From Segetibacter sp. (GTDB lineage: Bacteria > Bacteroidota > Bacteroidia > Chitinophagales > Chitinophagaceae), in contig JAQBNO010000006.1 of assembly GCA_028288485.1 (NCBI GenBank), positions 1 through 49,672 of the forward strand: DNA of 49,672 bases, in the 5' to 3' direction. The notes beneath the pieces were generated by a model that saw only the letters and a program-made list of their open reading frames with translations, was not told the origin of the DNA and did not search any database. The translations under genes were made by a program, and so were the position numbers. Shown piece by piece: positions 951 through 44,856 of the stretch. Every line of letters starts with the position of its first letter. Positions within the stretch are counted from its first letter, which is position 1.

Positions 951-1003
951 TTTTGGTAGCCGGCTGAATAACTTTTCTCAACATCGTTGTGTCACTCACT
1001 TGT
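951..1003 (+). repeat. Dispersed 3' repeat, copy A
   Basis: TTTTGG near 951 is followed by the core at 980-1003 (AACATCGTTGTGTCACTC then ACTTGT). It lies just downstream of the rhodanese gene, in the same sense. Confidence 0.65.
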
Positions 1004-1309
1004 GCCTTGCCGAAAAATTGTTTGCCTTTTTGATTTTTGTTGCTATAGGTTGTAAGTCGACTGTTTACGTTTATTCATGCATAAATGACAAGCCCAAAAA
1101 CAGTAAATAGCTTATATTTTTTCGTTCTGTTTGTCATTGAATATTATCGCATGCTGGAACAAAAAAGTACAGTAATCAAAACGTTGGCTGGAAGCTTTTC
1201 CAGACGAAAATCCCTAAAATTGAAAGACTACGCTATACTTATGATGGGGTTTATTAAACATGGGACTTTTTCTCTTTTTTATAGTAACCTGCCTTGATCG
1301 ATAAAGCTC

Positions 1310-1752
1310 ATGAGAGAAAAATTTGGACTGTTCGCTTCCATCGTTTTTGTACTTTTATCTTTTGTAGGACATTCGAACAATGACAACGATAACAAAGAGC
1401 CAAATTCAAATCAAATTAGGAGATAGATGTTTGCTTCAGAGACAGTTTAAATAGAAATGCGACTTCTCTCATTGACGTAGATCTGCAAAAAACATTAGTT
1501 TCGAAATCTCAGTTTGGTATTAAGTACGGCAAAAACAAACAAGGACAAACCAACGTTCCAATCAGTGCTAACTAATGGACGACACGTTTCATCAGTGGGA
1601 CAAATTGGAAGCCATCATCAATTATCATAAACAGGACAGACGACAATAACCAGCTTGAGTAGCAGGTTGATGGTATTGTAGAATGGAAATCACCTGGCGC
1701 AACTGTTTACTCTCAATCAAAAGAATATAAAGGCATGGCATTGACAAAATAA
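1310..1752 (+). pseudogene. Eroded coding remnants of unknown family
   Basis: Short open stretches in different frames follow one another and look protein-like. The first, 1310-1426, gives 38 residues with a hydrophobic start (MREKFGLFASIVFVLLSF) and then a charged tail. Next come segments containing SLIDVDLQKTLVSKSQFGIK, DDTFHQWDKLEAIINYHK and VDGIVEWKSPGATVYSQSK, each ended by a stop. This is what a secreted-protein gene broken by frameshifts would look like. I do not recognise the parent family. Chance open frames remain possible. Confidence 0.3.
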
Positions 1753-2040
1753 GCCGGCAGCCAACAGTGTGTTTATAAAATTGTGGCGCTACATTAAGCC
1801 TTGAACTTTAAATCGCTATTTTGTTTTTTCGGTTAATTGAAACTGACGTTTTTCAATTGCGACAACTTCATAAACACTTTAGCTTTGTGTGTCATACGAT
1901 TGGTACAGCCTACCAAATTAATCGTCCGTGGAAGTAAGAACTAAAATAACAGTCGAACTTACCAAAGTCTTTATTCAGGCATGACATTAATTACCAAATA
2001 CCCTCACGTGAATAATTATCCCGCAACAGTTACCATGTAA

Positions 2041-2262
2041 AATGTCAGCCGTTTATATACATTCGCAACAAGACTTATAAGAACACTTAAATTAGCAGTA
2101 GTTGTTATTTTTAGCGGTATTGTTTTACTGACTTACAAATCTGTCTTTAATAAAGGTGACGGACTTGGAATTTCGTTTCTTCCTGCTGTATTGGCACTGA
2201 TGTTTTTACCAACTATAATTTATTACATTAATACGTCGAGCCTGAAAAAATCATATGATTGA
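2041..2262 (+). pseudogene. Membrane protein fragment without a usable start
   Basis: A frame open from 2041 to TGA at 2260-2262 encodes about 73 residues with two hydrophobic segments, LAVVVIFSGIVLLTY and ISFLPAVLALMFLPTIIYYI, separated by a short polar loop. The only in-frame ATG lies late, inside the second segment, and an in-frame TAA precedes the frame. It is most likely the 3' end of a decayed membrane-protein gene. The family is not recognised. Confidence 0.35.
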
Positions 2263-2330
2263 GTAGCACGAAGGCACAACCAAACAAATCCCTTCTCAGC
2301 GCCGAAAGTTCCAATTGCGTTCAACAATCC

Positions 2331-3296
2331 TCACTCATGTTCCCTGCCTTTCAAAACACTGTTTTTCCAGGCGTCGTTCAGCGTTTCAAACTCTTTCAAA
2401 TCTTCTTCGGTAAAGGCTACATTTTGCAGGGTTTTTAAATCTGGCTGGCCCGCATTCACCCACGCTGTGTACCAAAAGCTGGCAACAGAGGAAATGGAGA
2501 GGCGCATGCGGCGTTCAATCATTCCGTTAAGCATCTTATTGTAGGCGATGGTGAATTGAGAAGAGTATTGCCTCAGCATTTTTCCGTTTCTTTCTTCGAA
2601 CGCATATTTTTTATCAACAGGGAATTGCTTTGTCAATACTGCTTCATCTTTTAGTACGGTGTCGGATGCGGCGCTGCTTTCAAGCACGCGCTGCCATACA
2701 TAATTGGGAATGTTGTCGATATATGTTGCCTTTCCTATCATAAAGTCAAATTCCTTTTCGGCAAGTAGCTCCGGTATCCTGCTTTCCCAAAAACCATGAA
2801 TACCTTTTTGATTGCTTAACTGTCCATCGTGGTTGGAGCTGGCGTGAAGTGGAACATGAGAGTCGGCGATATAATGCCCTATTTCAGCTGACAGCTTCAA
2901 TATCTTAGCCCTGTTTTTTTCTTTAAACGCACTGGTAAGTCTTTGCTCCATTATCTGTATCCACCATGGAACTATGCCGCGGGCAATTACAGTGTCTTCA
3001 GTATACTTTTCTACTGCTTCGTCGTATTTTCTTGGCAATTGCCGGTAAGGATAACTGCCATAAAAATCTATATCAATAAAATGCTTTGGTGCTTCTGCGG
3101 CAACTGCATATCGTCTTTTATCAGGGTCCACAGCGTGGTCGGTAATAAACTGGATGTTTGGTTTGTAAAGCACCATCATTTCGGGTGGCAGTAAAAACAC
3201 GGCGTAGTAGTTAATGCGTTGATGACCATAGAAGCCCCAGCAAAAACAGCAAATGCTAATTGCACAACAAATACAGCATAATACTATCTTTTTCAT
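2331..3296 (-). CDS. Zinc-dependent phospholipase C / S1-P1 nuclease-fold protein
   Basis: A secreted protein of 321 residues with the all-helical trinuclear-zinc fold shared by bacterial phospholipase C and S1/P1 nucleases. Likely metal ligands are visible in order: Trp20 and His25 in WGFYGH, Asp53/His54 in ITDHAVD, His72 in KHFIDID, the block IGHYIADSHVPLH (His141, Asp145, His147) and GIHGFWES (His167). A GTG two codons earlier is possible, but the ATG at 3296 directly precedes the basic KK and hydrophobic signal. That signal segment is odd in holding seven cysteines. The gene lies close behind the DUF502 gene and probably shares its transcript. Whether the substrate is a phospholipid, a nucleic acid or something else cannot be told from sequence. 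Confidence 0.75.
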   Translation of the reverse strand: MKKIVLCCICCAISICCFCWGFYGHQRINYYAVFLLPPEMMVLYKPNIQFITDHAVDPDKRRYAVAAEAPKHFIDIDFYGSYPYRQLPRKYDEAVEKYTEDTVIARGIVPWWIQIMEQRLTSAFKEKNRAKILKLSAEIGHYIADSHVPLHASSNHDGQLSNQKGIHGFWESRIPELLAEKEFDFMIGKATYIDNIPNYVWQRVLESSAASDTVLKDEAVLTKQFPVDKKYAFEERNGKMLRQYSSQFTIAYNKMLNGMIERRMRLSISSVASFWYTAWVNAGQPDLKTLQNVAFTEEDLKEFETLNDAWKNSVLKGREHE

Positions 3297-3306
3297 GGGC
3301 ACGAAT

Positions 3307-3948
3307 TTATTCTGCTATTTCAGCAACACCACCACTTAATGCAAATTTCATTGCATCTGTTGAGGATAGGTTGGTGAGAAATTTTACTTTCTCAATCGGA
3401 ACGATGTATACAACGCCACTCACTGCGTAAGAATGTGGTACATAAACAACTACATGATCCTTGAGTCCTATCCCGATTCCGCTTTCCTGTGTCATAAACC
3501 CCATACGCCATACATCGTTTGCGTCTACATTCACAAGCACTGGTTTATCGAACTTGCGCTTCTCGCCGGCAAAGGCTTCTAAAAAATCTTTTACAGATGT
3601 ATAAATGAACCTGATTCCGGGAGTTCGCTCCAACACATGCCCAAAAAAATCGACCACTTTTCCAACAACATAAGATGTAGAGAACCATCCTACTACCACG
3701 ATTAAAATAACAATTACGCCAAAGCCAATTCCCGGGATTTTTATCGGTTTACCCGCCTCGTCTAATTTATAAAAAGTTGGAAACAGCGAATAGATAATGT
3801 CGGGCAGAAAATTATCTACATAAACAAATAAAGAAAAGATTGCCCAACAGGTAACAATGATAGGCGCTAAAATAATAAGTCCCTGCACAAAGTAATTGAG
3901 CAGCTTGCGCCAGCGCCATTTTAAGGGTTCGTTCACTTTGAAATCCAT
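3307..3948 (-). CDS. DUF502 family inner-membrane protein
   Basis: 213 residues with two strong membrane segments (about 20-45 and 72-92), followed by a soluble domain. The stretch ERTPGIRFIYTSVKDFLEAF and the later VWRMGFMTQESG and VVVYVPHSYAVSGVVYIVP are the conserved core of DUF502, whose role is unknown. Length is normal for the family. It ends only ten bases before the start of the phospholipase-like gene, which suggests co-transcription. A TACTTTG element lies just before the start codon on the minus strand and may be the promoter. Confidence 0.85.
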   Translation of the reverse strand: MDFKVNEPLKWRWRKLLNYFVQGLIILAPIIVTCWAIFSLFVYVDNFLPDIIYSLFPTFYKLDEAGKPIKIPGIGFGVIVILIVVVGWFSTSYVVGKVVDFFGHVLERTPGIRFIYTSVKDFLEAFAGEKRKFDKPVLVNVDANDVWRMGFMTQESGIGIGLKDHVVVYVPHSYAVSGVVYIVPIEKVKFLTNLSSTDAMKFALSGGVAEIAE

Positions 3949-4266
3949 AGCGACAAAGTAAGAGAAAAAATTAAGAAAAGCGAGTGAGGAAAGTGAGGCA
4001 GTTGTAGAAATAATACATAATCACCCGGTTCGATTTGCGGAGGAAACAGGCGACCTTTTTTAGTAATCAAAGGCGTGGATGAGCGCCGCGAGTCAATAAC
4101 ACGCAAAGACGCAAAGGAATACAACGCAAAGGCGCTACAAAGAAGCAATAGAAACATCGGGAGTGGTTTACTGAAGATCGAAAAGTACAAGTCTATCACC
4201 TTTCGGCAAGCTTAGGCTACCTACAGCAGGCTTAGGGCAAGAACTGCCGCGTTGAATAACGCGTTA

Positions 4267-4330
4267 CAGTACAAGCGAGCGTGGCAACAGAAGCTTAATA
4301 GTAGTATCGGCGCCGGCTCAAAAAAAATAC
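4267..4330 (-). repeat. Dispersed 3' repeat, copy H
   Basis: Read on the minus strand it starts with a T-run and GAGCCGGCGCC, then a variable middle, then GTTGCCACGCTCGCTTGTAC. It lies downstream of galE in the same sense. Its middle (AAGCTTAATAGTAGTAT on the plus strand) recurs exactly near 24069. Confidence 0.6.
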
Positions 4331-4349
4331 GCATCTGTATGGAACAGGG

Positions 4350-4400
4350 ATAAAATAAAAATGCACAACTAAGTTTACTAATTGTGCATTTTTATTTTAT
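4350..4400 (-). terminator. Long hairpin terminator after galE
   Basis: A perfect 19-bp inverted repeat, 4350-4368 with 4382-4400, holds GC only in TGCAC and is A/T-rich at its base, so T-runs exist on both strands. It sits about 90 bases after the galE stop codon and probably ends the pit-galE transcript. Confidence 0.8.
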
Positions 4401-4488
4401 AAGTTGACAAGTTATAAGTTGATAACTTAACATCCTCCTTCAACTTTCCAACCTTTTAACTTCCTTACGTGATGAAGCAGCAGAAGAC

Positions 4489-5544
4489 CTAATTGTACTG
4501 GAACTTCTGGTTCTTTATAATTTCTTCGTCTTGTTTAATTTTTAATTCCCATGCCCATGCGGTTCGCATCATCTCTTTAAGATCATATTTGATTTCCCAG
4601 CCGAGGGCATTTCTTGCATAATCATTATTTGCATAAATAGCAACAACGTCTCCGGGGCGACGCGGGCCTTTTACATAATTCAGTTTTTGACCACTAACCT
4701 CTTCAAAAGCTTTGATCGCTTCCAATACAGTTACGCCGTTACCGGTGCCAAGGTTAAAAATATCGCAGTTCGTTTTATTCTTATTGTTAAGAAGGTATTG
4801 CAAGGCCAGGGTATGTGCGTGTGCAATGTCTGATACATGTATGTAGTCACGAATGTTGCTTCCGTCTCTTGTATCGTAATCCGTGCCGTGAACGGTCATT
4901 TGCGGAATTTTGCCGATAGCAGTTTGCGTAATTGCCGGAACAAGGTTAGCCGGTTTACCGATAGGAAGTTCGCCAATTAAAATGGAAGGATGAGCGCCAA
5001 CGGGGTTGAAATAGCGAAGCAATATTGATTTGGTGCCTGTTGCCTTAACTACGTTTGTTATTATTTCTTCTCCCATTTGCTTGGTAGATCCATAAGGCGA
5101 TTCTGCTTTTTTTATGGGAGACTCTTCAGTAACCGGTATCTTATCGGGGCTTCCGTAAACGGTGCAGGAAGAGGAGAAAACAAAATGAGGAACTTCGAAT
5201 TCCTCGACGCATTTTAGAAGATTGATCAGCGAAAACAAATTGTTTTCATAATACATCAGCGGCTCCTCAACTGATTCTCCTACGGCTTTGTAAGCTGCAA
5301 AATGTATAATACCCTTGATATCTTCATTTTCCTGGAATACCGCCCGTGTATCATTGTAATCCTTAAGGTCTACTTTATAATTTTTTACTTTTTTCCCGGT
5401 AATTTTTTCTATTCCATCCGTCAGAAAGCGAGTGCTACGTGAATTGTCATCGATAGAAATAACATCAAAACCGTTTTCTATAAGGTCAACTATAGTATGA
5501 GAACCTATATACCCGCATCCTCCGGTCACAAGGATTTTATTCAT
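4489..5544 (-). CDS. galE: UDP-glucose 4-epimerase
   Basis: GalE interconverts UDP-glucose and UDP-galactose in the cytoplasm, feeding galactose catabolism and surface polysaccharide synthesis. The protein is 351 residues, normal for the family. It is an extended short-chain dehydrogenase: the NAD-binding motif TGGCGYIGSH is at residues 7-16, the serine-bearing strand reads FSSSCTVYG, and the catalytic YxxxK is in SPYGSTK. The frame stays open 59 codons upstream, but that extension overlaps the end of pit and looks non-coding, so the start is the ATG at 5544, right before NKILVTGG. The 74-base gap to pit leaves room for its own promoter. Function confidence is high, although some GalE homologues act on other UDP-sugars. 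Confidence 0.93.
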   Translation of the reverse strand: MNKILVTGGCGYIGSHTIVDLIENGFDVISIDDNSRSTRFLTDGIEKITGKKVKNYKVDLKDYNDTRAVFQENEDIKGIIHFAAYKAVGESVEEPLMYYENNLFSLINLLKCVEEFEVPHFVFSSSCTVYGSPDKIPVTEESPIKKAESPYGSTKQMGEEIITNVVKATGTKSILLRYFNPVGAHPSILIGELPIGKPANLVPAITQTAIGKIPQMTVHGTDYDTRDGSNIRDYIHVSDIAHAHTLALQYLLNNKNKTNCDIFNLGTGNGVTVLEAIKAFEEVSGQKLNYVKGPRRPGDVVAIYANNDYARNALGWEIKYDLKEMMRTAWAWELKIKQDEEIIKNQKFQYN

Positions 5545-5618
5545 AAAATAAGTTTTAATAACGTTTACACTTGCAAAATAAGTGAAATAGATGGTTTTTA
5601 GCGAGATAAACCAGGCGG

Positions 5619-6632
5619 CTATGCAAATAAATTTATAATATAGAAAATTATCGCGGCCATTAAACCACTTATAGGAATGGTAATGATCCAGGCCCAAATA
5701 AGGCTTACAGTTACCCCCCACCTTACTGCCGACAAGCGTTTGGTGGCGCCTACACCTATGATTGCACCGGTAATGGTATGTGTTGTACTCACCGGTATCT
5801 TAAAATGTTCGGTCATAAATAAAGTTAAGGCACCCGCTGTTTCCGCAGCAACTCCTTCAAGTGGTGTTACTTTCGTTATACGGGTTCCCATTGTTTTTAC
5901 GATTTTCCAGCCACCGCTCATTGTACCCAGGGCTATAGCCACAAAACACGAAAGAGGCACCCAGTCAGGTATTGATTTCAGGTCGGGAATATAATTACTG
6001 GCAACCATGGCAGCACCAATAATACCCATTACTTTTTGGGCATCGTTGCCTCCATGTCCTATACTGAAAGCGGCAGAAGAAATTAACTGAAGTCGCTTGA
6101 ACCATCTTTCTGCCTTATAGGGATTTGCCCTTTTGCAAATCTGCACAATGATAACGGTTATAATAAAAGCCATTATCATACCTATGAGCGGTGCAATAAT
6201 AATAAAGCTGATAGTTGGAAGTACTTTTGAAGCATTGATAACTGAGAAAGTTTTGTAGTGCGCCACCGCCGCTCCAATGAGTCCACCAATTAATGCATGC
6301 GAAGAACTCGATGGAATACCAAACCACCAAGTAATAAGGTTCCAGATTATTGCAGATAGTAAACCAGACAGGATTAGGTATAAAGCCGATGGATCACCAG
6401 TTTGAATAGACACACTTTTAGCAATAGTGTCTGCGATGCCGAAACCGCCAATCACGTACTTTGAAATAAAGAATGCGGAAAAATTAAAAAAAGCAGCCCA
6501 CATAACTGCCTGGAATGGAGTGAGGACTTTAGTAGAAACAATAGTAGCTATGCTATTTGCTGAATCATGAAAACCATTGATGTAGTCGAATATGAAAGCG
6601 AAGATGATTATAATAATCAATAACGGGACCAT
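5619..6632 (-). CDS. pit: Pit-family low-affinity inorganic phosphate transporter
   Basis: A 337-residue inner-membrane permease of the PiT family, which imports phosphate (often as a metal-phosphate complex) driven by the ion gradient. The two inverted family repeats are visible: GFHDSANSIAT at residues 20-30 and GGNDAQKVMG in the middle, with the C-terminal PVSTTHTITGAIIGVGATK block. About ten hydrophobic segments are apparent. It follows the DUF47 gene after 29 bases, the usual PhoU-like/Pit operon. The DUF47 partner is thought to regulate the permease. Substrate could include other oxyanions. Confidence 0.92.
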   Translation of the reverse strand: MVPLLIIIIIFAFIFDYINGFHDSANSIATIVSTKVLTPFQAVMWAAFFNFSAFFISKYVIGGFGIADTIAKSVSIQTGDPSALYLILSGLLSAIIWNLITWWFGIPSSSSHALIGGLIGAAVAHYKTFSVINASKVLPTISFIIIAPLIGMIMAFIITVIIVQICKRANPYKAERWFKRLQLISSAAFSIGHGGNDAQKVMGIIGAAMVASNYIPDLKSIPDWVPLSCFVAIALGTMSGGWKIVKTMGTRITKVTPLEGVAAETAGALTLFMTEHFKIPVSTTHTITGAIIGVGATKRLSAVRWGVTVSLIWAWIITIPISGLMAAIIFYIINLFA

Positions 6633-6661
6633 AGATAAATTTTAACAGTGAATAGTTGTAA

Positions 6662-7309
6662 TTAAGCGTACTTAACAATTATAGACTCAATTACATTCGC
6701 TGCATCTTCACACTTATCTGTTGCCAGTTCCAATACCTGGTATATTTCCCTTCTTTTAATTACTTCTTTGAAGTCGTTCTCCTGGTTGAAGAGTTTTTCA
6801 ATACTGAGGTCAAAAATGTCGTCGGCCTGGTTCTCGATGTCGTTTACACGTACCAGCGCTTCGGTTATTTTACGGAGGTTTTTCATGTTGCGTAATTCTA
6901 CAACTGCGCTTTGCACATGTATAGTACCTTGTTCTATCAATTCAACCATTTTTTGAATACCCGGATCATTTGGATTAACCCGGTAAAAAATTATTTTTTT
7001 CGCGGAGGAATAAATGTAGTCCGCAATGTCGTCAAGGGCCGATGCCAGGGTGTGGATATCTTCACGGTCGAATGGAGTGATGAAGTTTCTGCCAAGCTCT
7101 GTGAAAAGTTTGTGCGTATGGTCATCGTTGAGATGTTCCAGGTCCTCAAGCCTGGAAGTTAATGAAGCTCTTTTATCGAAATCGGGTTCATTAACCAATT
7201 GTTTCAATACAGCCCCCATCGTTCTAACAGTTTCTGCCACCTCTTCGAAAAGGTTATAAAAGACGGTATTCTTCGGCATAAACAATTTTCCAATAGCATT
7301 CAATCCCAT
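6662..7309 (-). CDS. DUF47 (PhoU-like) regulator of phosphate transport
   Basis: A 215-residue all-helical cytoplasmic protein. The segments ELGRNFITPFDREDIHTLA, then ALDDIADYIY, and near the end REIYQVLELATDKCEDAANV, are the conserved metal-binding E/D-x-x-x-D helices of DUF47, a relative of PhoU. These proteins are almost always encoded next to a Pit permease, as here, and are taken to control its activity. Length is normal. A primary-sigma -7 element lies about 17 bases before the ATG. Confidence 0.9.
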   Translation of the reverse strand: MGLNAIGKLFMPKNTVFYNLFEEVAETVRTMGAVLKQLVNEPDFDKRASLTSRLEDLEHLNDDHTHKLFTELGRNFITPFDREDIHTLASALDDIADYIYSSAKKIIFYRVNPNDPGIQKMVELIEQGTIHVQSAVVELRNMKNLRKITEALVRVNDIENQADDIFDLSIEKLFNQENDFKEVIKRREIYQVLELATDKCEDAANVIESIIVKYA

Positions 7310-7325
7310 GAGATAAAAATTTACG

Positions 7326-7333
7326 CAAAAATA
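7326..7333 (-). promoter_or_regulatory. -7 promoter element for the DUF47-pit operon
   Basis: On the minus strand TATTTTTG fits TAnnTTTG and is followed closely by the DUF47 start codon, implying a very short leader. Confidence 0.5.
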
Positions 7334-7465
7334 GAATTATGATCTTTAGTTCGATCACGTAACAATTACTTAATAATTAGATAACATAGAAAAATAGATT
7401 AAAAATACTTATATCCTTATTGTACAACATATCTGGCGGTTCCTGGAATACTATCAGTTACTGTC

Positions 7466-7525
7466 TTCTTTGGGGACGAACAATAGATTCTTTGCGAAAC
7501 TTCCGTTGTGTCACTCACTTGTACT
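7466..7525 (+). repeat. Dispersed 3' repeat, copy B
   Basis: TTCTTTGGGGACGAAC is followed after about 20 bases by CGTTGTGTCACTCACTTG and TACT at 7504-7525. Unlike most copies it is antisense to both flanking minus-strand genes. Nothing else was found in 7310-7639. Confidence 0.65.
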
Positions 7526-7639
7526 ATCTGTACTTCATTCAGCATTTGCAGTTGCTTCTAATTTACCTAATTTATCGTAATAGTTAAATTGCTGGTTTTA
7601 GAAAGGTCTTTACGTCACCCTATACTTTGCAAGAAGACT

Positions 7640-13413: not shown

Positions 13414-13473
13414 GTTTTTTTGGGGGACAAGCTTCACATCTACTGTTAACATCGTTGTGTCACTCCCTTGTAC
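13414..13473 (+). repeat. Dispersed 3' repeat, copy C
   Basis: A run of seven T then GGGGGACAAGC, a middle of about 15 bases, then AACATCGTTGTGTCACTC and CCTTGTAC. It starts 25 bases after the terminator of the TonB operon, in the same sense. This copy shows the full layout well. Confidence 0.75.
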
Positions 13474-13660
13474 AGCAAATCATCGGGCTGCTTTTTCTTA
13501 ATTTCCTGTAAATGGGTATTATTGGTGTAGATAAATTTTGGCGGCAGAAGATGCTGATCGATTTTAAGCTGGAAGTTACCCGGAGAGAACTACAATTAAA
13601 ACGATTAATTTGTTAATTACTTTGCGATTAAAGTTGCTCGTTAAAGCGTTGCCGTTAAAA

Positions 13661-13716
13661 CGGAGCGTCGCAACAACTGCCCCTCAATATTCAGTAGCCC
13701 GCAGTCAAAAAAAAAT
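13661..13716 (-). repeat. Dispersed 3' repeat, copy K (partial)
   Basis: On the minus strand a nine-T run is followed by GACTGCGGGCT, a middle, then GTTGTTGCGACGCTCC. The CTTGTAC end is missing. Together with copy C it makes an inverted pair about 190 bases apart. Confidence 0.5.
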
Positions 13717-17444: not shown

Positions 17445-17517
17445 ATTTTGTTTCCTCCCATCCGCAGGTTCTCTATCTAACATCGTTGCTTCCGATAGCG
17501 TCGGAACGCTTGTACTG
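17445..17517 (+). repeat. Dispersed 3' repeat, copy D with replaced core
   Basis: AACATCGTTG and CTTGTACTG flank a palindromic insert, TTCCGATAGCGTCGGAA, in place of the usual TGTCACTCA. It lies downstream of the TPR gene in the same sense. The rest of 17392-17837 shows no gene. Confidence 0.6.
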
Positions 17518-17837
17518 TAACGCATTTTAGACAGTGGCAGTTTTTAGCCGTAGCCTGCTGAAGGATACCCTCTGCCTGTCGAAGAGTGGCATACTTCAAC
17601 TGCTGCTAATTCTATTGAGCTCGTTAAATTTTTTATGACGTTACAATGCTTCGCCGATTGTGCATCCTCTTGATATTATTGCGACAGATGGAACAATATA
17701 TGCTCAAGATGTGATAAACGTTACGCTTTCTTATTCGGTTTCCTGAGCCGGTATCTATGGCTTTGCCGATATTCCTGGTTGTCCACTTTTTTATTTGTTT
17801 CAAATTACCTACTTTAAGGTCTTATAAATATAATATC

Positions 17838-23517: not shown

Positions 23518-23608
23518 AAAGCGGTTGAGGCAGTTCTAGTTTGAATAGTGAGTTTCTGGTTCTTTGCACTGGTTTTTGTTCTCATTTTTGGTACGCAAAG
23601 TACCTTAA

Positions 23609-23660
23609 GTACAAGAGTGCGACACAAGAAGCGTCGGCTCCGATACCGTGAAAAATAAAC
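23609..23660 (-). repeat. Dispersed 3' repeat, copy I
   Basis: On the minus strand TATTTTTCACGG is followed by the middle and CTTGTGTCGCACTCTTGTAC. It points away from topoisomerase IB and lies, at 600 bases, downstream of the minus-strand YtxH operon. Confidence 0.6.
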
Positions 23661-23727
23661 TTTTACTGCGATCATTTATAACTCAAGCTGTGCGGCTTTG
23701 TTACTGCAACGGGACTCCACCCCTTGT

Positions 23728-23940: not shown

Positions 23941-23985
23941 CTACGCTAAGTTCTATCAAAGAATTAAAAGTTGAACTGAGCGTAG
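23941..23985. repeat. Imperfect inverted repeat
   Basis: CTACGCTAAGTTC (23941-23953) pairs with GAACTGAGCGTAG (23973-23985) at 12 of 13 positions. It lies directly beside repeat copy L. Confidence 0.55.
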
Positions 23986-24030
23986 CAACGATGATTCTTA
24001 TAGTACAAAAAGTCGGTATCCAAAAAACTT
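23978..24030 (-). repeat. Dispersed 3' repeat, copy L (divergent)
   Basis: On the minus strand TTTTTTGGATACCGAC is followed by a middle and AATCATCGTTGCTACGCTC. The first half and ATCGTTG match the family; the core end has changed. Between here and 24170 an AAGCTTAATAGTAGTAT fragment of the copy-H type is also present. Confidence 0.45.
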
Positions 24031-26828: not shown

Positions 26829-26860
26829 TAAATTTAAGTGTAGTCACTAGGTGGCCCGAA

Positions 26861-26905
26861 CTTTTTTATTACTATATAACATCGTTGTGTCACTCACTTG
26901 TACTG
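26861..26905 (+). repeat. Dispersed 3' repeat, copy E
   Basis: A T-run at 26862-26867, then AACATCGTTGTGTCACTC and ACTTGTACTG at 26878-26905. It lies downstream of the iron-permease-like gene in the same sense. Confidence 0.7.
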
Positions 26906-26991
26906 CAAACCATTATGCTGCAATTTGTACGAGCGATAAATAATATTGGTAATAGTAAACGTTTAGATATTAACTATATAAAAATAAAAAG

Positions 26992-35299: not shown

Positions 35300-35440
35300 T
35301 TACCCGCATACAATTATATATAAGCATTGCTCTCGTTTTGGTGCAACGCTTTTTTAAATCGTGTTACACTCACAAGCGGAAACGTTTGTACTCTTGAAAT
35401 CGGGATTGAAATATGCAAAACAATTCGAACTGAAGAAACC

Positions 35441-35492
35441 TTTTGGGACAGGCTTTAAGGATCACTAAGCAACATCGTTGTGTCACTCACTT
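35441..35492 (+). repeat. Dispersed 3' repeat, copy F
   Basis: TTTTGGGACAGGC, a middle, then AACATCGTTGTGTCACTC and ACTT. It lies downstream of tamL in the same sense. 35300-35911 has no supported gene. Confidence 0.7.
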
Positions 35493-35541
35493 CAGCAACA
35501 AACCCTTTATCAGTCTTTTTTTCTGCTGAATTATTTTGCCC

Positions 35542-35606
35542 TGTACAAGAGTGCGACGCAACAGGAGACTGTTGTAGTTCTAATGCCTGGGCCCCAAAAA
35601 ATACAC
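35542..35606 (-). repeat. Dispersed 3' repeat, copy F' (inverted to F)
   Basis: On the minus strand TATTTTTTGGGGCCCAGGC, a middle, then GTTGCGTCGCACTCTTGTAC. It follows the minus-strand beta-barrel gene in its sense, so the convergent gene pair has one copy at each 3' end. Confidence 0.75.
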
Positions 35607-37630: not shown

Positions 37631-37636
37631 TATTTT

Positions 37637-37660
37637 AGCACCCATCCGGGTGCTTTTTTT
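37637..37660 (+). terminator. Terminator between convergent genes
   Basis: AGCACCC and GGGTGCT close an ATCC loop and run into seven T. It touches the stop codon of the convergent minus-strand gene. Confidence 0.9.
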
Positions 37661-39818
37661 ATATTTTAATGGTAAGTGTTTGTCTTAAACCTGTGAATAT
37701 CGATTTCCAGATAAAATTGAAGAATGAGCGATATTTGTCTGGTTTCAATACAATATTTGCAGTTCGTGCACCAGGTCCTGCCTTATTCTTGTTTTTAACG
37801 AGAATGTTTGCGAGAAAACTCAGTACGTCCTTTTTGTTATACTCATTGCCCTTCTTTTTTAGTACTGTTACCTTAATATCGTCGTAAGTTATCGTTAAGC
37901 TTCCCTGCGAAATACTTGTGTCTGCCATAATATTAAACCTGAAAGAATTTACCACTCCTTTTTCAATTTTGACCATCGACATAGGTTGTGTTAACTGGCT
38001 TAAAATAGTCGCATCAAAGCTTTTATTTATTTCAGCATCAACCATAAATCTTCCCTTCTTGTAATTATCCAGGTATAGTACAAAGCTTCCCGAAACCGGT
38101 ATTTTTTCAAGGAAAGTACTGGTAAAGTCCATGGTAATTTTTCCGGGCACTTTTGTGGGCTGGTTCGAAACGTTATCTATAGTAAAGGAGGTATTAGAAA
38201 ATCGAACTCTTCCACTGCTCTGGCTAGCCGGATTTTTTTCTTTGTATTCTATGTATGTTTTTTTGGCAATAACCTTATTAATTTTTATAGGGAAGCCAAG
38301 GTCGTAAAGTAAATGATGCGGGTAAGTTGCACGTTTTCCTTGTTTCGAGATTGTATCGACAGGATACGACAAGTCATGAAAAATATTTATCGAATTTCCG
38401 GACGTAATCAAATTGTCGATCACTATTTCACCTTTTAATAATTTTTCGAACTCAACCCTGCTGCATTCGATATTATTGAATTTCGCATCAAATCTATCTG
38501 ATTGCACTTTCATCTTTCTTGCAAAATCCGCTTCATTTAGCCGGGGTAAAATTTTTATTGATTTTATAGTTATTCTTTTCGAAAGTGTATTTAGTGTAAG
38601 ACCTTCAAAGCGATAATTGTATAACTGGTCCTCACTCGTTAAATTAATTTCCTCGTTTTTTATGTCGATTTCTTTAGTCCTGTTTACAAGGCTTTCGTCT
38701 AACAGCGTTTCCCGGTCAATGAGAAGGTCTTTTATGATAAAGGAATTGTTTTTTACTGTATAGGTCTTCTTTTTGGCGCCCGACGACTTACTTACAAAAG
38801 TGAGTGACTTTAATTTTAATTCAGTAAGTGAAAATGTTTTAATCCATCCTGTAAGTATTAAGCTCTTTTTATTTGCGGTCTTTTTTTTATCACTTTTTTT
38901 ATCCGACAGTGTTTCTAATTCTCCTCTTTCCAGGGCCGCGACGCCAATTGTAAGATCAGAGTTTTCTACTGGTCCTGTCCACGAAATTCCTTTAAGAGAA
39001 ATTCCTTCTAACTTACTTTTAAAAAAGCCTTTATTCTTATAAGCGTCATATTCAAATTTCTCCAGTGTCACTATTTCCGATCTTGTATCAAAAGAAGCTT
39101 TTGTAATTTCAGCGGCATTAGCCTTATCTCCTAAAACGACTTTGTCTGATTGTATTTCAATTTCTTTACAAAAAAGAGTTCTGGTAGTATCCTGGTTATA
39201 AGTACTGTCAATTGCTATATCACTTAAATGAATTGTTGTATTATAAGTTCGAAATTTTACTTCTTTTGTATAGAAGTCCATTGCTACAACCCTGGTGTTA
39301 GTAACAGACACATTTTCCGCCTTTATTAATTTAAAATTCCCAAGTATTTGTTTGTATAACTCTTCCTGCTCCGCTTTTGCGTTTCTTGCCTTCGCTTGCC
39401 CGGGAAATAGATATATCGTCACTTGGGGATCAGAGATCAAGACCTGTTTACATTCCATCTGCTTCGCAACTAATGCACTTGCCGTTCTAAAATCTACAAC
39501 CTTTAATAAGGGAATATAAATATCAAGAAGCATTTTCGACGCATTGGTATCGCCGCTTTTTATCATCTGCAACAGCTTGGCGGTATCGCCTTTAACATAC
39601 AAATTCCTGATATAGAGATCGCCGTCGACTTCATTAACCGAAATAGAATCGTAGCTTAAGTTATAGAGTTGGTTTGTTTTATTGTGTACAATAGTTTGAA
39701 GCTGATGATCAAGAAAGGCGTGCTTTTTTACTCTATACAATACATAGCCCGAAATAATTACAATAGCAGTTGCGAAGATTACTAAGTACTTTGTTTTCCT
39801 CCTCCCGGTAATATTCAT
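37659..39818 (-). CDS. AsmA/DUF748-like periplasmic protein
   Basis: 719 residues. One N-terminal membrane anchor (about 10-28, YLVIFATAIVIISGYVLY) and a long beta-rich periplasmic body with no cysteine-rich or catalytic motif. Repeated patterns such as LIKAENVSVTNTRVV, LEGISLKGISWTGPVENSDL and a C-terminal part with MVKIEKGVVNSFRFNIM suggest an AsmA/DUF748-type protein, distantly like TamB and shorter. Such proteins may carry lipids between membranes. A lysine-rich linker (about 308-320) breaks the body. Assigned on architecture; family confidence is moderate. Confidence 0.6.
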   Translation of the reverse strand: MNITGRRKTKYLVIFATAIVIISGYVLYRVKKHAFLDHQLQTIVHNKTNQLYNLSYDSISVNEVDGDLYIRNLYVKGDTAKLLQMIKSGDTNASKMLLDIYIPLLKVVDFRTASALVAKQMECKQVLISDPQVTIYLFPGQAKARNAKAEQEELYKQILGNFKLIKAENVSVTNTRVVAMDFYTKEVKFRTYNTTIHLSDIAIDSTYNQDTTRTLFCKEIEIQSDKVVLGDKANAAEITKASFDTRSEIVTLEKFEYDAYKNKGFFKSKLEGISLKGISWTGPVENSDLTIGVAALERGELETLSDKKSDKKKTANKKSLILTGWIKTFSLTELKLKSLTFVSKSSGAKKKTYTVKNNSFIIKDLLIDRETLLDESLVNRTKEIDIKNEEINLTSEDQLYNYRFEGLTLNTLSKRITIKSIKILPRLNEADFARKMKVQSDRFDAKFNNIECSRVEFEKLLKGEIVIDNLITSGNSINIFHDLSYPVDTISKQGKRATYPHHLLYDLGFPIKINKVIAKKTYIEYKEKNPASQSSGRVRFSNTSFTIDNVSNQPTKVPGKITMDFTSTFLEKIPVSGSFVLYLDNYKKGRFMVDAEINKSFDATILSQLTQPMSMVKIEKGVVNSFRFNIMADTSISQGSLTITYDDIKVTVLKKKGNEYNKKDVLSFLANILVKNKNKAGPGARTANIVLKPDKYRSFFNFIWKSIFTGLRQTLTIKI

Positions 39819-39833
39819 AGCTTAAGTTGAAAT

Positions 39834-39866
39834 AAAAAGCTACAGGCATAATACCTGTAGCTTTTT
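39834..39866 (-). terminator. Perfect 13-bp terminator after the lmo0937-like gene
   Basis: AAAAAGCTACAGG (39834-39846) pairs with CCTGTAGCTTTTT (39854-39866). It separates the 48-residue gene from the AsmA-like gene on the minus strand. Confidence 0.9.
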
Positions 39867-39902
39867 AATAAGATGGTGGTCAAACTAATTTACAAAAGGT
39901 TA

Positions 39903-40049
39903 TCACGCTCTTCTTATTATGCCTATAAGCAGAGATATGACGGCAAGTACTAATAAAATATGAATTAAACCTTTAACGCTATATACAAAAACACCTAAAA
40001 GCCAACCAATAATTAAGATTACAGCCAGGATATACAAGATACTTCTCAT
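39903..40049 (-). CDS. lmo0937 family small membrane protein
   Basis: 48 residues, too short for common ORF cut-offs. MRSILYILAVILIIGWLLGV then FVYSVKGLIHILLVLAVISL and a basic end, IGIIRRA, match this two-helix family closely (the GWLLG and G-I-I-R-R ends are typical). Members are stress-induced in some bacteria; the role is unknown. It has a TGGCAAG box 29-45 bases upstream and a perfect terminator downstream. Confidence 0.88.
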   Translation of the reverse strand: MRSILYILAVILIIGWLLGVFVYSVKGLIHILLVLAVISLLIGIIRRA

Positions 40050-40077
40050 GATAAAAAGTTTAGTTAAAATATAAGAA

Positions 40078-40094
40078 TTTAAAAAACCTTGCCA
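40078..40094 (-). promoter_or_regulatory. TGG-box (TGGCAAGGTTTTTTAAA) of the lmo0937-like gene
   Basis: Read on the minus strand, 45 bases before the ATG; TATATTTT follows as a possible -7 element. Confidence 0.45.
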
Positions 40095-40188
40095 ACATTT
40101 TAATTAACACATTATCGGGTTGTCTAACCCCTTGATATAAAACGAAGTAGGTGTAAAAAAATCCCCATTAAAAATAGAGTAGTTTTAC

Positions 40189-40204
40189 TGGCACGAACTT
40201 ACTG
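40189..40204 (+). promoter_or_regulatory. TGG-box (TGGCACGAACTTACTG) of yihY
   Basis: A perfect TGGCACG 38 bases before the ATG, here without a T-run. TATAAATTC follows. Confidence 0.35.
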
Positions 40205-40226
40205 GTATAAATTCAATAATTATAAA

Positions 40227-41180
40227 ATGAAAGCAGTTAAAAAGTATTGGCATGTATTTAAAGAAGCTGTAAGTGCCTTTGTAGAAGATAATTGTGTTAA
40301 ACTCAGTGCCTCACTGTCTTATTATACCATTTTTTCAATTGGTCCTTTATTAATTATTATCATTTCTCTTTCTACGATATTCTGGGGTAGGGAAGCAGTT
40401 ACAGGCAGGTTGTATGGCCAGATTAGTGGGTTAATTGGGAGCGATGCAGCCATCCAGATACAGGAAATAATAAAAAATAGTCAACAATCAAGCAACGGTT
40501 TTATTGGTACTGTTATAGGGACCGTAATTCTTGTGATAGGCGCTACCGGAATTTTTACCGAGATCCAGGATTCGATTAACTATATATGGTCATTAAGGGC
40601 TAAACCCAAAAGAGGTATTGTAAAATTCCTCTTTAACCGCATGCTTTCATTTTCTCTGATTGTGAGCCTCGGCTTTTTGCTTTTGGTATCTCTTGTTATT
40701 AGCACTCTTCTCGATTTACTTAGCGATCGTCTTACCCATTTTTTCCCTAATACCACCGTTTATATCTTTTATGTCATAAACCTGTTCATAATTTTTGCGC
40801 TCATCAGTATTTTATTTGCAATTATTTTTAAAGTGTTGCCCGATGGTAAAATTAAATGGAAGGACGCCTTCGTTGGGGCTTCGTTTACCGCAATCCTATT
40901 TTTGATAGGTAAGGCAGGAATTGGATATTACCTCGGCAGGTCGAATTTGGGAGCGACTTATGGCACTGCCGCCTCTGTTATTCTTATACTTACATGGGTT
41001 TATTATACTTCCATAATTCTATATTTCGGAGCCGAATTTACCAAGGTTCACGCCTTAGAATACGGAGGAGGAATTGTACCTAACGGAACTGCCGTGTTTA
41101 TTATTAAAAGAGAAGCCAAGGAAATTGAGACGATACCGGCAAGATTGGCAGGTAAAAACAACGACGCTGTTAATACATAG
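40227..41180 (+). CDS. YihY/BrkB family inner-membrane protein
   Basis: 317 residues with six to seven membrane helices. The family core is clear: KLSASLSYYTIFSIGPLLII near residue 25, then GATGIFTEIQDSINYIW, VLPDGKIKWKDAFVGASFTA, and GATYGTAASVILILTWVYYTS near 245. The family was once thought to be ribonuclease BN, which is wrong; transport or envelope functions are suspected. The C-terminal tail is soluble. It diverges from the lmo0937-like gene over a 177-base region. Confidence 0.88.
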   Translation: MKAVKKYWHVFKEAVSAFVEDNCVKLSASLSYYTIFSIGPLLIIIISLSTIFWGREAVTGRLYGQISGLIGSDAAIQIQEIIKNSQQSSNGFIGTVIGTVILVIGATGIFTEIQDSINYIWSLRAKPKRGIVKFLFNRMLSFSLIVSLGFLLLVSLVISTLLDLLSDRLTHFFPNTTVYIFYVINLFIIFALISILFAIIFKVLPDGKIKWKDAFVGASFTAILFLIGKAGIGYYLGRSNLGATYGTAASVILILTWVYYTSIILYFGAEFTKVHALEYGGGIVPNGTAVFIIKREAKEIETIPARLAGKNNDAVNT

Positions 41181-41251
41181 CTACCGGTACTGATTATTTA
41201 TTTTTAGCAAGAGTTTTACCGCTATGTTAGACGAGGGTTGTAAACACGATT

Positions 41252-41310
41252 CTTTTGGAGACAGACAGTAATAACTTTAATCATCATCGTTGTGTCACTC
41301 ACTTGTACTG
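41252..41310 (+). repeat. Dispersed 3' repeat, copy G
   Basis: CTTTTGGAGACAGAC, a middle, then CATCGTTGTGTCACTC and ACTTGTACTG at 41285-41310. It lies 72 bases downstream of yihY in the same sense. In the rest of 41181-41709 no gene is supported. Confidence 0.7.
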
Positions 41311-41660
41311 TTGTTATTTTATGAGCAATAGGAAAGCGATCTTTAAATGGTTGTATTCTACTTGGTTTATCCGTCGAAATATATATGAACACCCCACCGC
41401 TGTGAAGTGTTTACTGTTTGCGTTCGCTACTGTTTCTACTTCAACATCTTATTTCTTATACCACCTAATTCCCATTCATACACTATTACCAAATGGTTGT
41501 TGTAGAACCTAAAGCAGGCGACGTATCGCTGCTTTTTCTTACAAATTGAAGAGTGGACCCGGCTTGCTTAACTGTAGGAAGAGTAAGTCCGTCGGTCATC
41601 AAATACTCGTTTCTGTTCTTTGCGGCAATTATCGTAAAAACACGAAGAATTACCACGGGC

Positions 41661-41677
41661 TGGTACGTTCTTTTTTA
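41661..41677 (+). promoter_or_regulatory. TGG-box (TGGTACGTTCTTTTTTA)
   Basis: TGGTACG plus T-run, 49 bases before the start codon of the general stress protein 26-like gene. Confidence 0.4.
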
Positions 41678-41709
41678 CAGCAACATTATAACATTATAAA
41701 TTCTTTATT

Positions 41710-42213
41710 ATGCAACAGCAAGACCTTAACTCAAATGAATCTTTAAAAAAATTAGTTGACCTGGTTGAAGAAGTAAAAGTTTGCATGTTTGCAACGATCC
41801 ACGACGATTACTCTCTTTACAGCCGGCCCATGCAGTCTATAAAAGTTGATGAACAAGGCAGTATCTGGTTTTTCACCAATGAATTTTCCGGAAAAGTTGA
41901 TGATGTCTCAAAAGAAAATACAGTTTACTTAATGTACTCCCATCCCGGCCAAAATACTTATTTACACGTAAAAGGAAAATGTACAGTCGTTAATGAGCGT
42001 GAAAAAATAGAGGAATTATGGTCACCAATTGTTAAGGCATGGTTTCCAAAAGGTGTAGACGATCCTGCACTATCATTATTAAAGGTTGAAGTTGATGAAG
42101 CCAGCTATTGGGACGGAGCCTCTAACAGCTTTGTTGTGTTTTACAATATTATCAAAGCTATTGCTAAAGGTGAAAAACACAACGACGGGGAATTTGGAAA
42201 GTTGAACATTTAA
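41710..42213 (+). CDS. Pyridoxamine 5'-phosphate oxidase-like (general stress protein 26 type)
   Basis: 167 residues of the FMN-binding split-barrel fold. KVCMFATIHDDYSLYSRPM, then GSIWFFTNEFSGKVDDV, VYLMYSHPGQNTYLHVKG and the C-terminal LKVEVDEASYWDG match the general-stress-protein-26 family. Members bind FMN or FAD and may reduce small molecules; the real substrate is unknown. Length is normal. It is followed by a more divergent relative after 308 bases. Confidence 0.88.
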   Translation: MQQQDLNSNESLKKLVDLVEEVKVCMFATIHDDYSLYSRPMQSIKVDEQGSIWFFTNEFSGKVDDVSKENTVYLMYSHPGQNTYLHVKGKCTVVNEREKIEELWSPIVKAWFPKGVDDPALSLLKVEVDEASYWDGASNSFVVFYNIIKAIAKGEKHNDGEFGKLNI

Positions 42214-42521
42214 TTCCTCTGGTCTTTTGTGAGAAAGGGAAGAAGCTGTGTGTGTAAAGCTTGTTAGGAGAAAACTACCTTAAATTTTTGTTACGATGCA
42301 TCGTTAAAACCAAATTTTGAATCTATAATGAAGAATGATAGTTGAATAGAAACGACATTTTTTTTTCGCCAGATTTTCTTTTTACGAGGTTTCGCGGCCG
42401 GCCGGCTTACAATACATGGTTAATTAACAGCTTAAACTTAAATGACTTATGTGGAAAGAAGTTTCGAAAAATATTTTAAAAACCGGTATACTTTTAGCAG
42501 TAATACTACAAAATCTTTAGT
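42214..42521. other. Intergenic region between the two split-barrel genes
   Basis: No terminator or small gene is evident. CGGTATACTTTTAGCA at 42484-42499 contains GG-N10-GC, the minimum of a sigma-54 promoter, 22 bases before the next ATG. Confidence 0.35.
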
Positions 42522-43037
42522 ATGGATAATGATAAAATTCTACACTTTATTGCCGAAAAAATTGAAGACATAAGGTTAGCAATTTTCTATTGTCACAGCA
42601 ACAGCACCCTTAAAATAAACAATACCATTATTCATACTTACAGGGTAGATGACAACGGTAATATCACCTTCTTCATTAATCGGCCACAGCAACTGATCAG
42701 GGAGTTTGATCAGGAATTTCCGGTCGGACTTAATTATTTCAAAAAAGGCAAAAACTGCTTCCTGAACATTTTTGGTAAAGCAAGGATCATCAATGACCCC
42801 GAAGAACTAGCTTACGAAACAGATCTGTCGCCAGAAGAAATTAATAGCGCACTTACAACCCACATCCTTATTAGGGTTAAGATCTTGAAAGTTGATTTTT
42901 ATGATAACGATTTTGAAAAGAAGAATTTGCTTTTGAAAAAGGCATGGTCTGTATTTGCAAAGTTATTCGATTCCTTAAGTGCTTCCCGCAGTTACGACTT
43001 GAGCCCGAGGTCTTCGTTACACCATTTCGGTATCTAA
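42522..43037 (+). CDS. Divergent split-barrel (PPOX-like) protein
   Basis: 171 residues. The order of elements follows the preceding gene product: IRLAIFYCHSN, HTYRVDDNGNITFFINRPQQ, FPVGLNYFKKGKNCFLNIFGKARIIN and a late VKILKVDFYDND strand. The arginine-proline of the flavin site (SRPM in the neighbour) is missing, so flavin binding is doubtful. A polar tail with SLSASRSYDLSPRSS ends the protein. Probably an ancient duplicate of the neighbour with a changed job. Confidence 0.65.
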   Translation: MDNDKILHFIAEKIEDIRLAIFYCHSNSTLKINNTIIHTYRVDDNGNITFFINRPQQLIREFDQEFPVGLNYFKKGKNCFLNIFGKARIINDPEELAYETDLSPEEINSALTTHILIRVKILKVDFYDNDFEKKNLLLKKAWSVFAKLFDSLSASRSYDLSPRSSLHHFGI

Positions 43038-43100
43038 AAGTTCAGAAATGGGGTGCTAAATGAATCAAAAGTTTTGAGAATTGGATTTTTTGTTGGATAA

Positions 43101-43136
43101 AAAAAGAGGCGACCAAAAATGGTTGCCTCTTTTTTA
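43101..43136 (+). terminator. Bidirectional terminator
   Basis: AAAAAAGAGGCGACC (43101-43115) pairs with GGTTGCCTCTTTTTT (43122-43136), one G-T pair. It serves the PPOX-like gene and the convergent kinase gene. Confidence 0.9.
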
Positions 43137-43167
43137 TGGAACACCTCTTTTAGATTAGGGATTCTGA

Positions 43168-44664
43168 CTATGTTAATAGCGATTTGTCGCTTTTCTTAAA
43201 AGTAATGATAAATGAGGTTCCAGAGCCCACTTCTGACTTAACGTCGATATGAGCATTATGTGACTGGATGATGTTGAGTGTAGATGCGAGACCTAAACCC
43301 ATTCCATTTCTTTTCGATGTAAAATAAGGCTCAAATAATCTTTGCATATTTTCTTCACTTATCCCGCTTCCGTTGTCAGTTATTTCTACAACATGCACTT
43401 CATCTGTAGAATAAACTGCGATTTTTAATTTACCTGCATCTTCAGCCATAGCCTCTATGGCGTTTATTATTATGTTCAGGAATGCCAGTTGTACTTTTTC
43501 GGGATCGATCAGTGCAAAACAATCAACTTTTGGATAAGAAACTTCGAGATCAATGTGCTTTAATGTTAACCTGTCAAGCGCCGAGGAAATAGCGCTATCC
43601 ATTACCGACTGCAAGGAAGATTCCTGGAGGTTTATTTGAGAAGAAAGCCTGGAGGAATTAAGAAGTTCGGTAATAAGGTCCCCAATTCTTTTACCATTAC
43701 GTTGAACGATACTAAGGTACAATTTCGAGTCTTCGTCGTTTGACTGCTGTAATAATTGCTCTATAGAAAGATTAATGTTATTAAGGGGATTTCTTACTTC
43801 GTGGGCAAGTGTGCGCACCAGGCGACCCGTTGCGGCCAGTTTTTCAGCTTGCAAAGCAGTTTTTTCTGCTTTCTTCCGGCTGGTATTATCGTGTATAATG
43901 CCCTGAATATATTTCTCCCCATTGTTGTTTATTTCTATTGAGGCAGAAATTATACAGTTTTTGATGTCGCTATTTTTTGCGACAAGATCAGCTTCGTAAT
44001 CGTAAAACTCACCGATATCATTTAATATATTTAAGAAGTAGGTTTTATCATCCTGGCTTTTAAATACAGATAAAAGACTGGCACCGAGCAGCTCATCTTG
44101 TTCATAATCGAGTAACTCAGTAGCTGCATAATTTATATCAATAATTTTAAAATCGGTAGATGTGATAAACACGACGTCCTTCGATTTCTCGAACATGCCG
44201 CGGTATTTTCTTTCATTTGCTTTTAACGCATGAATTGAAGAGGCGCGTTCAAGAGAATAGCGGATGCAGCGCTCCAGTTTTTCTGTATTTAACTCAGATT
44301 TGATCAGGTAATCGTACGCTCCACTTTCCATAGCTTTAACGTCTATTTCCTGTGTGCCTTTACCGGTGAGCAAAATAATGGGAGCTTCGCAGCCACGAGC
44401 AATTGCATCAGTAAGAAGATCCATTCCTGTTTTTATTCCTAACCGGTAGTCAACAAAATAAATGTGGTAGTCGTTGGAAACCAGTTTTTGCAATGCGTCT
44501 TTATAATTGTACGACCAGTCAACTATAAAATTATTTGAAGGAATACTTTTAATGTATTCTGAAGTAATGAAAAAATCATCTTCATCGTCATCCACTATCA
44601 ATATCCGCTTTTCCTGAATTTTACTGTTCATTTTACCATCAATTTTTTTTAGTAGTCCTTTCAT
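43168..44664 (-). CDS. Receiver-PAS-histidine kinase
   Basis: 498 residues, no membrane segment, so cytoplasmic. In order: receiver domain (about 19-140, phosphoacceptor Asp72 in FVDYRLG), PAS domain (about 150-265), HisKA with His288 in LAHEVRNPL, and the HATPase domain with NIIINAIEA, DNGSG (430-434) and GMGLGLA (454-460). It senses an unknown signal through PAS and is itself controlled by phosphorylation of the N-terminal receiver. A second ATG at residue 12 (44631) is an alternative start. It lies 416 bases after an NtrC-type gene and may be its partner, though a terminator stands between. Confidence 0.92.
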   Translation of the reverse strand: MKGLLKKIDGKMNSKIQEKRILIVDDDEDDFFITSEYIKSIPSNNFIVDWSYNYKDALQKLVSNDYHIYFVDYRLGIKTGMDLLTDAIARGCEAPIILLTGKGTQEIDVKAMESGAYDYLIKSELNTEKLERCIRYSLERASSIHALKANERKYRGMFEKSKDVVFITSTDFKIIDINYAATELLDYEQDELLGASLLSVFKSQDDKTYFLNILNDIGEFYDYEADLVAKNSDIKNCIISASIEINNNGEKYIQGIIHDNTSRKKAEKTALQAEKLAATGRLVRTLAHEVRNPLNNINLSIEQLLQQSNDEDSKLYLSIVQRNGKRIGDLITELLNSSRLSSQINLQESSLQSVMDSAISSALDRLTLKHIDLEVSYPKVDCFALIDPEKVQLAFLNIIINAIEAMAEDAGKLKIAVYSTDEVHVVEITDNGSGISEENMQRLFEPYFTSKRNGMGLGLASTLNIIQSHNAHIDVKSEVGSGTSFIITFKKSDKSLLT

Positions 44665-44692
44665 ATGTTTTTTTGGTTGGCCCAGGTTGGAT

Positions 44693-44735
44693 AAAAAGAA
44701 AAAAGGGTAAAGACGTTTTACCCTTTTTTCTTTTT
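44693..44735 (-). terminator. Perfect 19-bp hairpin terminator
   Basis: 44693-44711 pairs with 44717-44735, a GGGTAAA/TTTACCC core with A/T arms that give T-runs on both strands. It probably ends the rpoN-NtrC transcript, about 345 bases after its last stop codon. Confidence 0.75.
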
Positions 44736-44792
44736 ATCAGCTACTATTTTGCCATATAATAAAGCAGCTTCAGGTTCAGGAGAATTACTGAA

Positions 44793-44856
44793 TGTACAAG
44801 AGTGCGACGCAACAAAAGCAATATCAGCTACTACTGTCGGGTACCAAAAAAATACG
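44793..44856 (-). repeat. Dispersed 3' repeat, copy J
   Basis: On the minus strand TATTTTTTTGGTACCCGAC, a middle, then GTTGCGTCGCACTCTTGTAC. It follows the NtrC-type gene in its sense. In 44665-45079 nothing else was recognised. Confidence 0.75.

Follow-up and report, generated by a model that had tools for sequence, protein, structure and literature searches.

MITEs are short, non-coding, dispersed elements, and DNA uptake sequences, known in Neisseria and Haemophilus as DUS/USS, are common inside genes. REP sequences and REPINs, with their RAYTs, have been described by Bertels and Rainey 2011 (PMC3116915; see also PMC8049555), and these reports portray hundreds of extragenic copies, inverted hairpin doublets and singles alongside doublets. 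CGTC-tagged REPs (Di Nocera 2013, PMC3733652) are extragenic repeats that lack a dedicated transposase, form head-to-head dimers and carry a terminal tag, after which comes an 8-9 bp stem with a 4-5 base loop.

Here we describe a repeat of the Chitinophagaceae that resembles each of these in part. It came to attention in the window, the whole 49,672-nucleotide stretch of a Segetibacter sp. contig that was analyzed, where an earlier note had listed 13 copies; the observation holds up, and the repeat family proves larger than first noted. The element shares with REPINs its hundreds of extragenic copies, its inverted hairpin doublets and its coexisting singles. Unlike REPINs as portrayed there, its half-unit is not palindromic (fold z near 0 for 187 copies in 16 folding windows), its doublets mix two core types in the genome we label G164, its singles are not less conserved than its doublets, and it needs no Y1/RAYT gene, none having been found in G164. 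Inverted doublets are in excess in G164 and G230 taken together (57 of 60 close pairs face each other) and show no excess in the window's genome. Like the CGTC-tagged REPs, the element is extragenic, has no dedicated transposase, forms head-to-head dimers and carries CGTC or TGTC within its C and T cores; it differs in that the motif is internal to the core and no such stem and loop comes after it.

The element is short, non-coding and dispersed and has inverted doublets, as a MITE might, but neither target duplication nor a cognate transposase was found, and singles dominate in the window's genome. Its copy number, exact core with T-tract and inverted pairs recall DNA uptake sequences, whereas its near-absence from genes, its 77-bp unit and its two core types do not. 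No description of the element was found in the open-access literature searched, REP/REPIN work being among the matches listed; core fragments retrieved an unrelated plant paper from open-access text and, among the matches listed, no title on a bacterial repeat.

Core, arm and copies in the window

The element is built around a nearly invariant 20-bp core, GTTGYGTCRCWCNCTTGTAC. Ten cores occur in the window at up to three mismatches (shuffle mean 0.04), and the genome-wide search that the earlier note had proposed, run on the window's genome (6.38 Mb, 220 contigs), found 519 + 520 core places (1,039) at up to two mismatches, against 2 + 0 for a reversed-pattern control; exact cores number 277 + 302. 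We aligned 187 copies from the window's genome and genome G001 (cores at up to two mismatches) and found an element of ~77 bp with sharp edges, reading in order a T-tract, a G + C.RGC motif, a weak CTATT.AAC/AGC motif, ATC, the core and a tail TGTAA...TATTCAGC. The arm between T-tract and core drifts in sequence. The 'variable middle of 15-35 bases' of the earlier note is variable in sequence, its length being nearly fixed, with the T-tract at about -36 to -33 relative to the core. Left and right arms compared as direct repeats within a copy match weakly (z 2.6). An Rfam scan of the window at gathering score gave no matches.

Two further roles were considered for these sequences and dropped. 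A coding function was set aside on inspection, given that the arm-to-core spacing shifts by 1-2 bases between copies and stop codons lie inside. The idea that the T-tract supplies the U-tract for a terminator lying upstream was rejected: under a loose stem rule, stems of at least 8 bp are only slightly in excess in G164 (0.28 versus 0.16) and not in excess in G230 and G172 together; there is little excess in the window's genome.

Cores fall into a T type (GTTGTGTCACTCACTTGTAC), a C type (GTTGCGTCGCACTCTTGTAC) and a minor third form (GTTGCCACGCTCGCTTGTAC), the last followed in several copies by AGCGTGGC. Among 152 cores (up to three mismatches) in a 785-kb sample of the window's genome, the T hexamer is present in 76, the C hexamer in 57 and the third form in 14. 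Where AGCGTGGC follows the third type (seen at window 4251-4326 and in the 14 copies of the sample), it could give a hairpin, and some copies of this type have a tail like CCTGAGCCTGTCGAAGGG. Other hairpins, CCGATAGCTATCGG-like, lie inside the core or the arm and tail of some copies (window 17485-17515 and loci L107 and L108), giving the appearance of insertions of another small repeat.

All 13 window places carry the repeat, seven on the plus and six on the minus strand by reading, and 10 of the 13 have a core at up to three mismatches; the copies first placed at 13661, 17445 and 23978 proved degenerate. The note's statement that every copy is intergenic stands, all 13 lying outside simple gene calls. 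The extents of intact elements given here were set by rule, from 38 bases before the core to 18 after it. Plus-strand T-type elements with exact cores lie at 7467-7542 (core 7505-7524, flanked by two minus-strand genes), 13416-13491 (core 13454-13473), 26846-26921 (core 26884-26903) and 41251-41326 (core 41289-41308, downstream of a gene of the BrkB family, PF03631). Another plus-strand T-type element, at 948-1023, has a single core mismatch (core 986-1005) and a readable T-tract and arm. Facing the element at 13416 is a degenerate minus-strand copy at 13654-13715 with a core-like GTTGCGACGCTCCGTT, seen by direct reading and not found at three mismatches. Two more copies were recognized by direct reading: a plus-strand one at 17447-17535, whose core (region 17485-17515) is split by TTCCGATAGCGTCGGAA, and a degenerate minus-strand one at 23973-24030 with a core-like GTTGCTACGCTCAGTT. 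The minus strand also bears a third-type element at 4251-4326 (core 4269-4288, two mismatches), one with a mixed T/C core, CTTGTGTCGCACTCTTGTAC, at 23591-23666 (core 23609-23628, one mismatch), and a C-type element at 44776-44851 (core 44794-44813, exact). The remaining two copies make up the window's sole T/C doublet: a plus-strand T-type left half at 35439-35514 (core 35477-35496, three mismatches) faces a minus-strand C-type right half at 35525-35600 (core 35543-35562, exact) at a pair spacing of 66, and the doublet folds weakly (z -1.8).

Genomic placement and distribution

In the 785-kb sample of the window's genome, none of the 123 placeable copies is genic (74% of random positions are; 17 of 140 copies at stretch edges could not be placed), so the scatter inside genes that the earlier note had named as evidence against a repeat family was not seen. 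When samples of four genomes were taken together, genes called by a simple codon-usage caller contained 2 of the 428 cores (0/140, 2/188, 0/48 and 0/52). This near-absence from genes bears on the idea of an uptake-like signal, in which biased uptake of DNA, with recombination, would disseminate the cores and preserve their sequence. In its favour, the 1,000 to 2,000 copies, the exact core with its T-tract at a set distance and the inverted pairs resemble DUS/USS, and a lone core suffices for conservation; with so few cores in genes and a unit much longer than DUS/USS, we consider it very unlikely.

Position relative to gene ends, which the earlier note had listed among its checks, is biased only in part. 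Between co-directional genes in the window's genome, the sense strand after the gene is preferred moderately (49 versus 28), and the bias is small or absent among G164 singles (30 versus 26). The first of these counts, and the strong hairpins that doublets form, would suit a 3' regulatory RNA or a transcription terminator. The G164 orientations, together with the presence of an element in 22 of 33 G164 divergent gaps of at least 100 bp, do not support a 3' RNA as a general role. Nor does folding: on the element strand alone, the 187 copies gave a mean RNA z of -0.3 to +0.2 over 16 folding windows, and two single window copies gave +0.9 and +0.3. The T-tract stands before the core, and direct reading places an element of genome G008 downstream of a separate terminator-like hairpin. 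We therefore regard an RNA or terminator role as most unlikely, and of the three options in the earlier note the REP/MITE-like element and the protein-binding site survive. That note had also read the sub-types as compensated; two types do exist, but compensatory RNA changes inside one unit are not borne out, no RNA structure having been found in it on the element strand and no convincing stacked Watson-Crick covariation.

The core appears confined to one family and varies widely in number there. At up to one mismatch, it is carried by 149 of the 294 Chitinophagaceae genomes sampled and by 68 of 101 genera, with copy numbers ranging from 0 to 2,113; G230 (2,113), G164 (2,093) and G172 (1,750) hold the most. 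Within the genus of the window, counts range from 3 to 1,263. In a sample of the phylum, exact matches were found in 6 of 395 genomes, all six among the 14 of Chitinophagaceae, and in none of the 381 outside the family. Matches listed in a scan of named genomes came from Chitinophagaceae genera and from assemblies that bear the label Chitinophagales, Bacteroidota, Bacteroidetes or Sphingobacteriales. Different genera share the two 20-mers.

Cores are also present in 28 viral stretches, most with arm and tail visible by inspection; two of them (L366 and L375) do not show these parts and look like chance matches. In another (L358) the core sits in a phage, with NinB, NinG, replication-initiation and primase/helicase neighbours. 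Separately, genomes G005 and G008, which belong to two species, have almost identical element-bearing stretches at contig ends (L151, at the start of G005 contig C93, and L150, at the end of G008 contig C68), and are ~81% identical at the response-regulator locus; the near-identical stretches perhaps reflect recent transfer.

Inverted doublets and the search for a mobilising factor

In 504 kb of G164 and G230, neighbouring cores less than 400 bp apart face each other in 57 cases, stand back-to-back in 3 and never point the same way. The 45 facing pairs of G164 comprise 37 T/C, 5 C/C, no T/T and 3 unclassified pairs, a heterotypy with p about 1e-7 (on 42 of the 45 pairs, the three unclassified being dropped). 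What the earlier note saw as sub-types are two kinds of element, which in copy-rich G164 form head-to-head pairs. Heterotypy is not universal, because G230 doublets are mostly C/C (10 of 12 facing pairs), against the T/C rule. In the window's genome, 13 pairs closer than 400 bp compare with 10.1 expected (nine facing, three back-to-back, one same-way), and T/C accounts for five of the seven facing pairs closer than 300 bp; close pairs are not in excess there, and most copies are therefore single.

Doublets fold. The 57 facing pairs have a mean fold z of -5.2 against mononucleotide shuffles, and a 64-nt doublet unit from G172, folded as DNA, has a z of -3.9 against dinucleotide shuffles. The shortest doublet form has a 24-base interior, and T-tracts are outermost. 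By inspection, longer interiors (~60-120 bases) in G164 and G230 often contain unrelated imperfect palindromes made of simple words that differ between copies. One G172 locus (L325:2051-17953) is a tandem array of ~800-aa paralogues, presumably permease-like, with 27-38% protein identity; a PHROGs scan of one paralogue gave no match. Closely similar 64-bp doublets lie between six of these paralogous genes, in each sampled gap, and six of the seven doublets of the array are T/C and one C/C.

A partner matching at 14 or more of 19 positions accompanies 26 of 140 cores in the window's genome and 86 of 185 in G164. It is either well kept or absent, and no decayed partner was detected above background beside single copies. 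Pairing makes little difference to the core in G164, where exact cores make up 23 of 37 paired and 22 of 32 single T cores, and 21 of 41 paired and 38 of 78 single C cores. Outer arms are no more complementary within pairs (0.38) than between them (0.41). The absence of partners beside singles and the outer-arm result sit poorly with a MITE of an unrecognised DNA transposon, in which the doublet would be the full element and singles its broken halves, although inverted doublets with T-tracts outside are what such an element would show. No target duplication or inverted flanks were found around 187 copies or 56 doublets, and in the sampled regions the 635 ORFs that lie between cores spaced 300-4,500 bp apart include no conspicuous gene family that could be an autonomous partner. 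We consider such a MITE quite unlikely.

The earlier remark that no transposase is linked holds in the regions examined. The complete G164 genome, with its 2,093 copies, has no match to PF01797 (Y1_Tnp), and a match is as common among genomes that carry copies (10 of 12) as among those with zero copies (10 of 12); mobilisation by Y1/RAYT as a requirement was rejected on both counts. A core lies within ~2 kb of 9 of 30 Y1 loci, close after the match at one (L329), and no flanking pattern recurs. Downstream of the Y1 gene in the window's own genome (L064:8021-8590, contig C195) stand palindromes resembling GTTGGGCTCTGCCCAAC in place of the core element; these are possibly a separate repeat family. 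The YxxNQ..HH motif of this gene resembles subclass 1.2 of the Bacteroidetes Y1 classes, as given in PMC6006769.

A comparison of 138 named and viral loci revealed no empty site with exact boundaries; in 19 alignment rows, a number that includes reciprocals, the alignment runs across an element present in both sequences. A search for phage relatives with an empty site gave four near-identical contigs and none in an annotated phage set.

Possible constraint at shared sites and candidate explanations

Within the genus, presence at a given gene end varies: brkB and the response-regulator gene each have an element after them in 2 of 10 genomes, and among the matches listed the counts are 4 of 7 for the 35912 gene, 2 of 6 for the Omp85 gene and 3 of 3 for the rhodanese gene. 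Elements at all five gene ends are in the sense 3' orientation, and core type differs between species at four of them, agreeing at the rhodanese gene.

We also compared G164 with G082, whose aligned blocks are 66-85% identical. Seven of the 15 L297 cores (up to four mismatches) could be matched to an orthologous site within a single G082 region; two of the 15 fall at or past the edge of this region, and one is an apparent chance match. At the seven sites, the core is identical at 133 of 140 positions (95%), a value biased upward because a site that has lost its core goes undetected, and the type is always kept. Identity is 151/245 (62%) in the arm, 96/245 (39%) on the inner side and 211/490 (43%) in the far flanks, with a random-sequence baseline of ~36% under the same best-shift rule; at one site the arm is conserved because it abuts a conserved gene. 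For the G164 doublets at 4398, 6024 and 13229 one end is kept, and its partner was not found in G082 at up to four mismatches. This alignment points to a constraint that would act on single ends. Retention of core and type while the inner side and far flanks are near chance favours a function at each site.

Exact cores at shared sites and the equal conservation of singles and doublets favour a host protein-binding site, with core and T-tract bound by an abundant protein (a nucleoid protein, insulator or transcription roadblock) and purifying selection on each copy. Consistent with such a site, the two 20-mers are the same from genus to genus, and copies are spread along the G164 chromosome evenly and in a Poisson-like manner (mean 9.0, variance 7.9 per 20 kb, 21 stretches). 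Copy number, however, differs hugely between relatives, type is not kept at four of the five genus gene ends, and the G164/G082 sites were chosen for a detectable core in both genomes. We treat a host-bound site as a tentative possibility.

The varying copy number, the presence or absence of copies at gene ends and the similar doublets between old paralogues instead favour a family-specific, non-autonomous miniature DNA element, REPIN-like with a trans-acting partner and not itself a REPIN. The preponderance of facing doublets (57 against 3 and 0), their heterotypy in G164, their folding and the cores in viral stretches favour it as well. It is weakened by the lack of a pair excess in the window's genome, by the constancy of the G164/G082 core, by the C/C doublets of G230 and by the failure to find an empty site, a target duplication or a mobilising gene; singles are conserved like doublets, which a mobile doublet does not predict. 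We hold this REPIN-like element to be a serious candidate with somewhat less than an even chance, slightly ahead of the host-bound site. Both can be true together, the element having been domesticated as a site.

For the REPIN-like element, the proposed unit is a half-element of ~77 bp comprising T-tract, arm, 20-bp recognition core of T or C type, and tail. Two halves, in G164 usually T + C, can join head to head as an inverted doublet, which folds into an imperfect hairpin when single-stranded. A putative trans factor, presumably a core-binding protein, would recognise the core and slowly copy or insert the element into gaps between genes, and carriage by phages may help it to spread.

A more speculative description, which we offer as doubtful, is of a two-letter genomic address: a family-wide two-variant 20-bp site beside a T-tract, exact at gene boundaries that can number in the thousands and putatively read by a protein. 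Selection or biased drive would keep the site while its surroundings drift, with heterotypic head-to-head hairpins in some lineages.

The element is very abundant in its carrier genomes. A core that served as a bound site would mark the majority of the larger gaps between genes that were sampled in G164. Since much of the pattern seen in REPIN populations recurs here without the transposase, what keeps such repeats alive becomes testable in a new setting.
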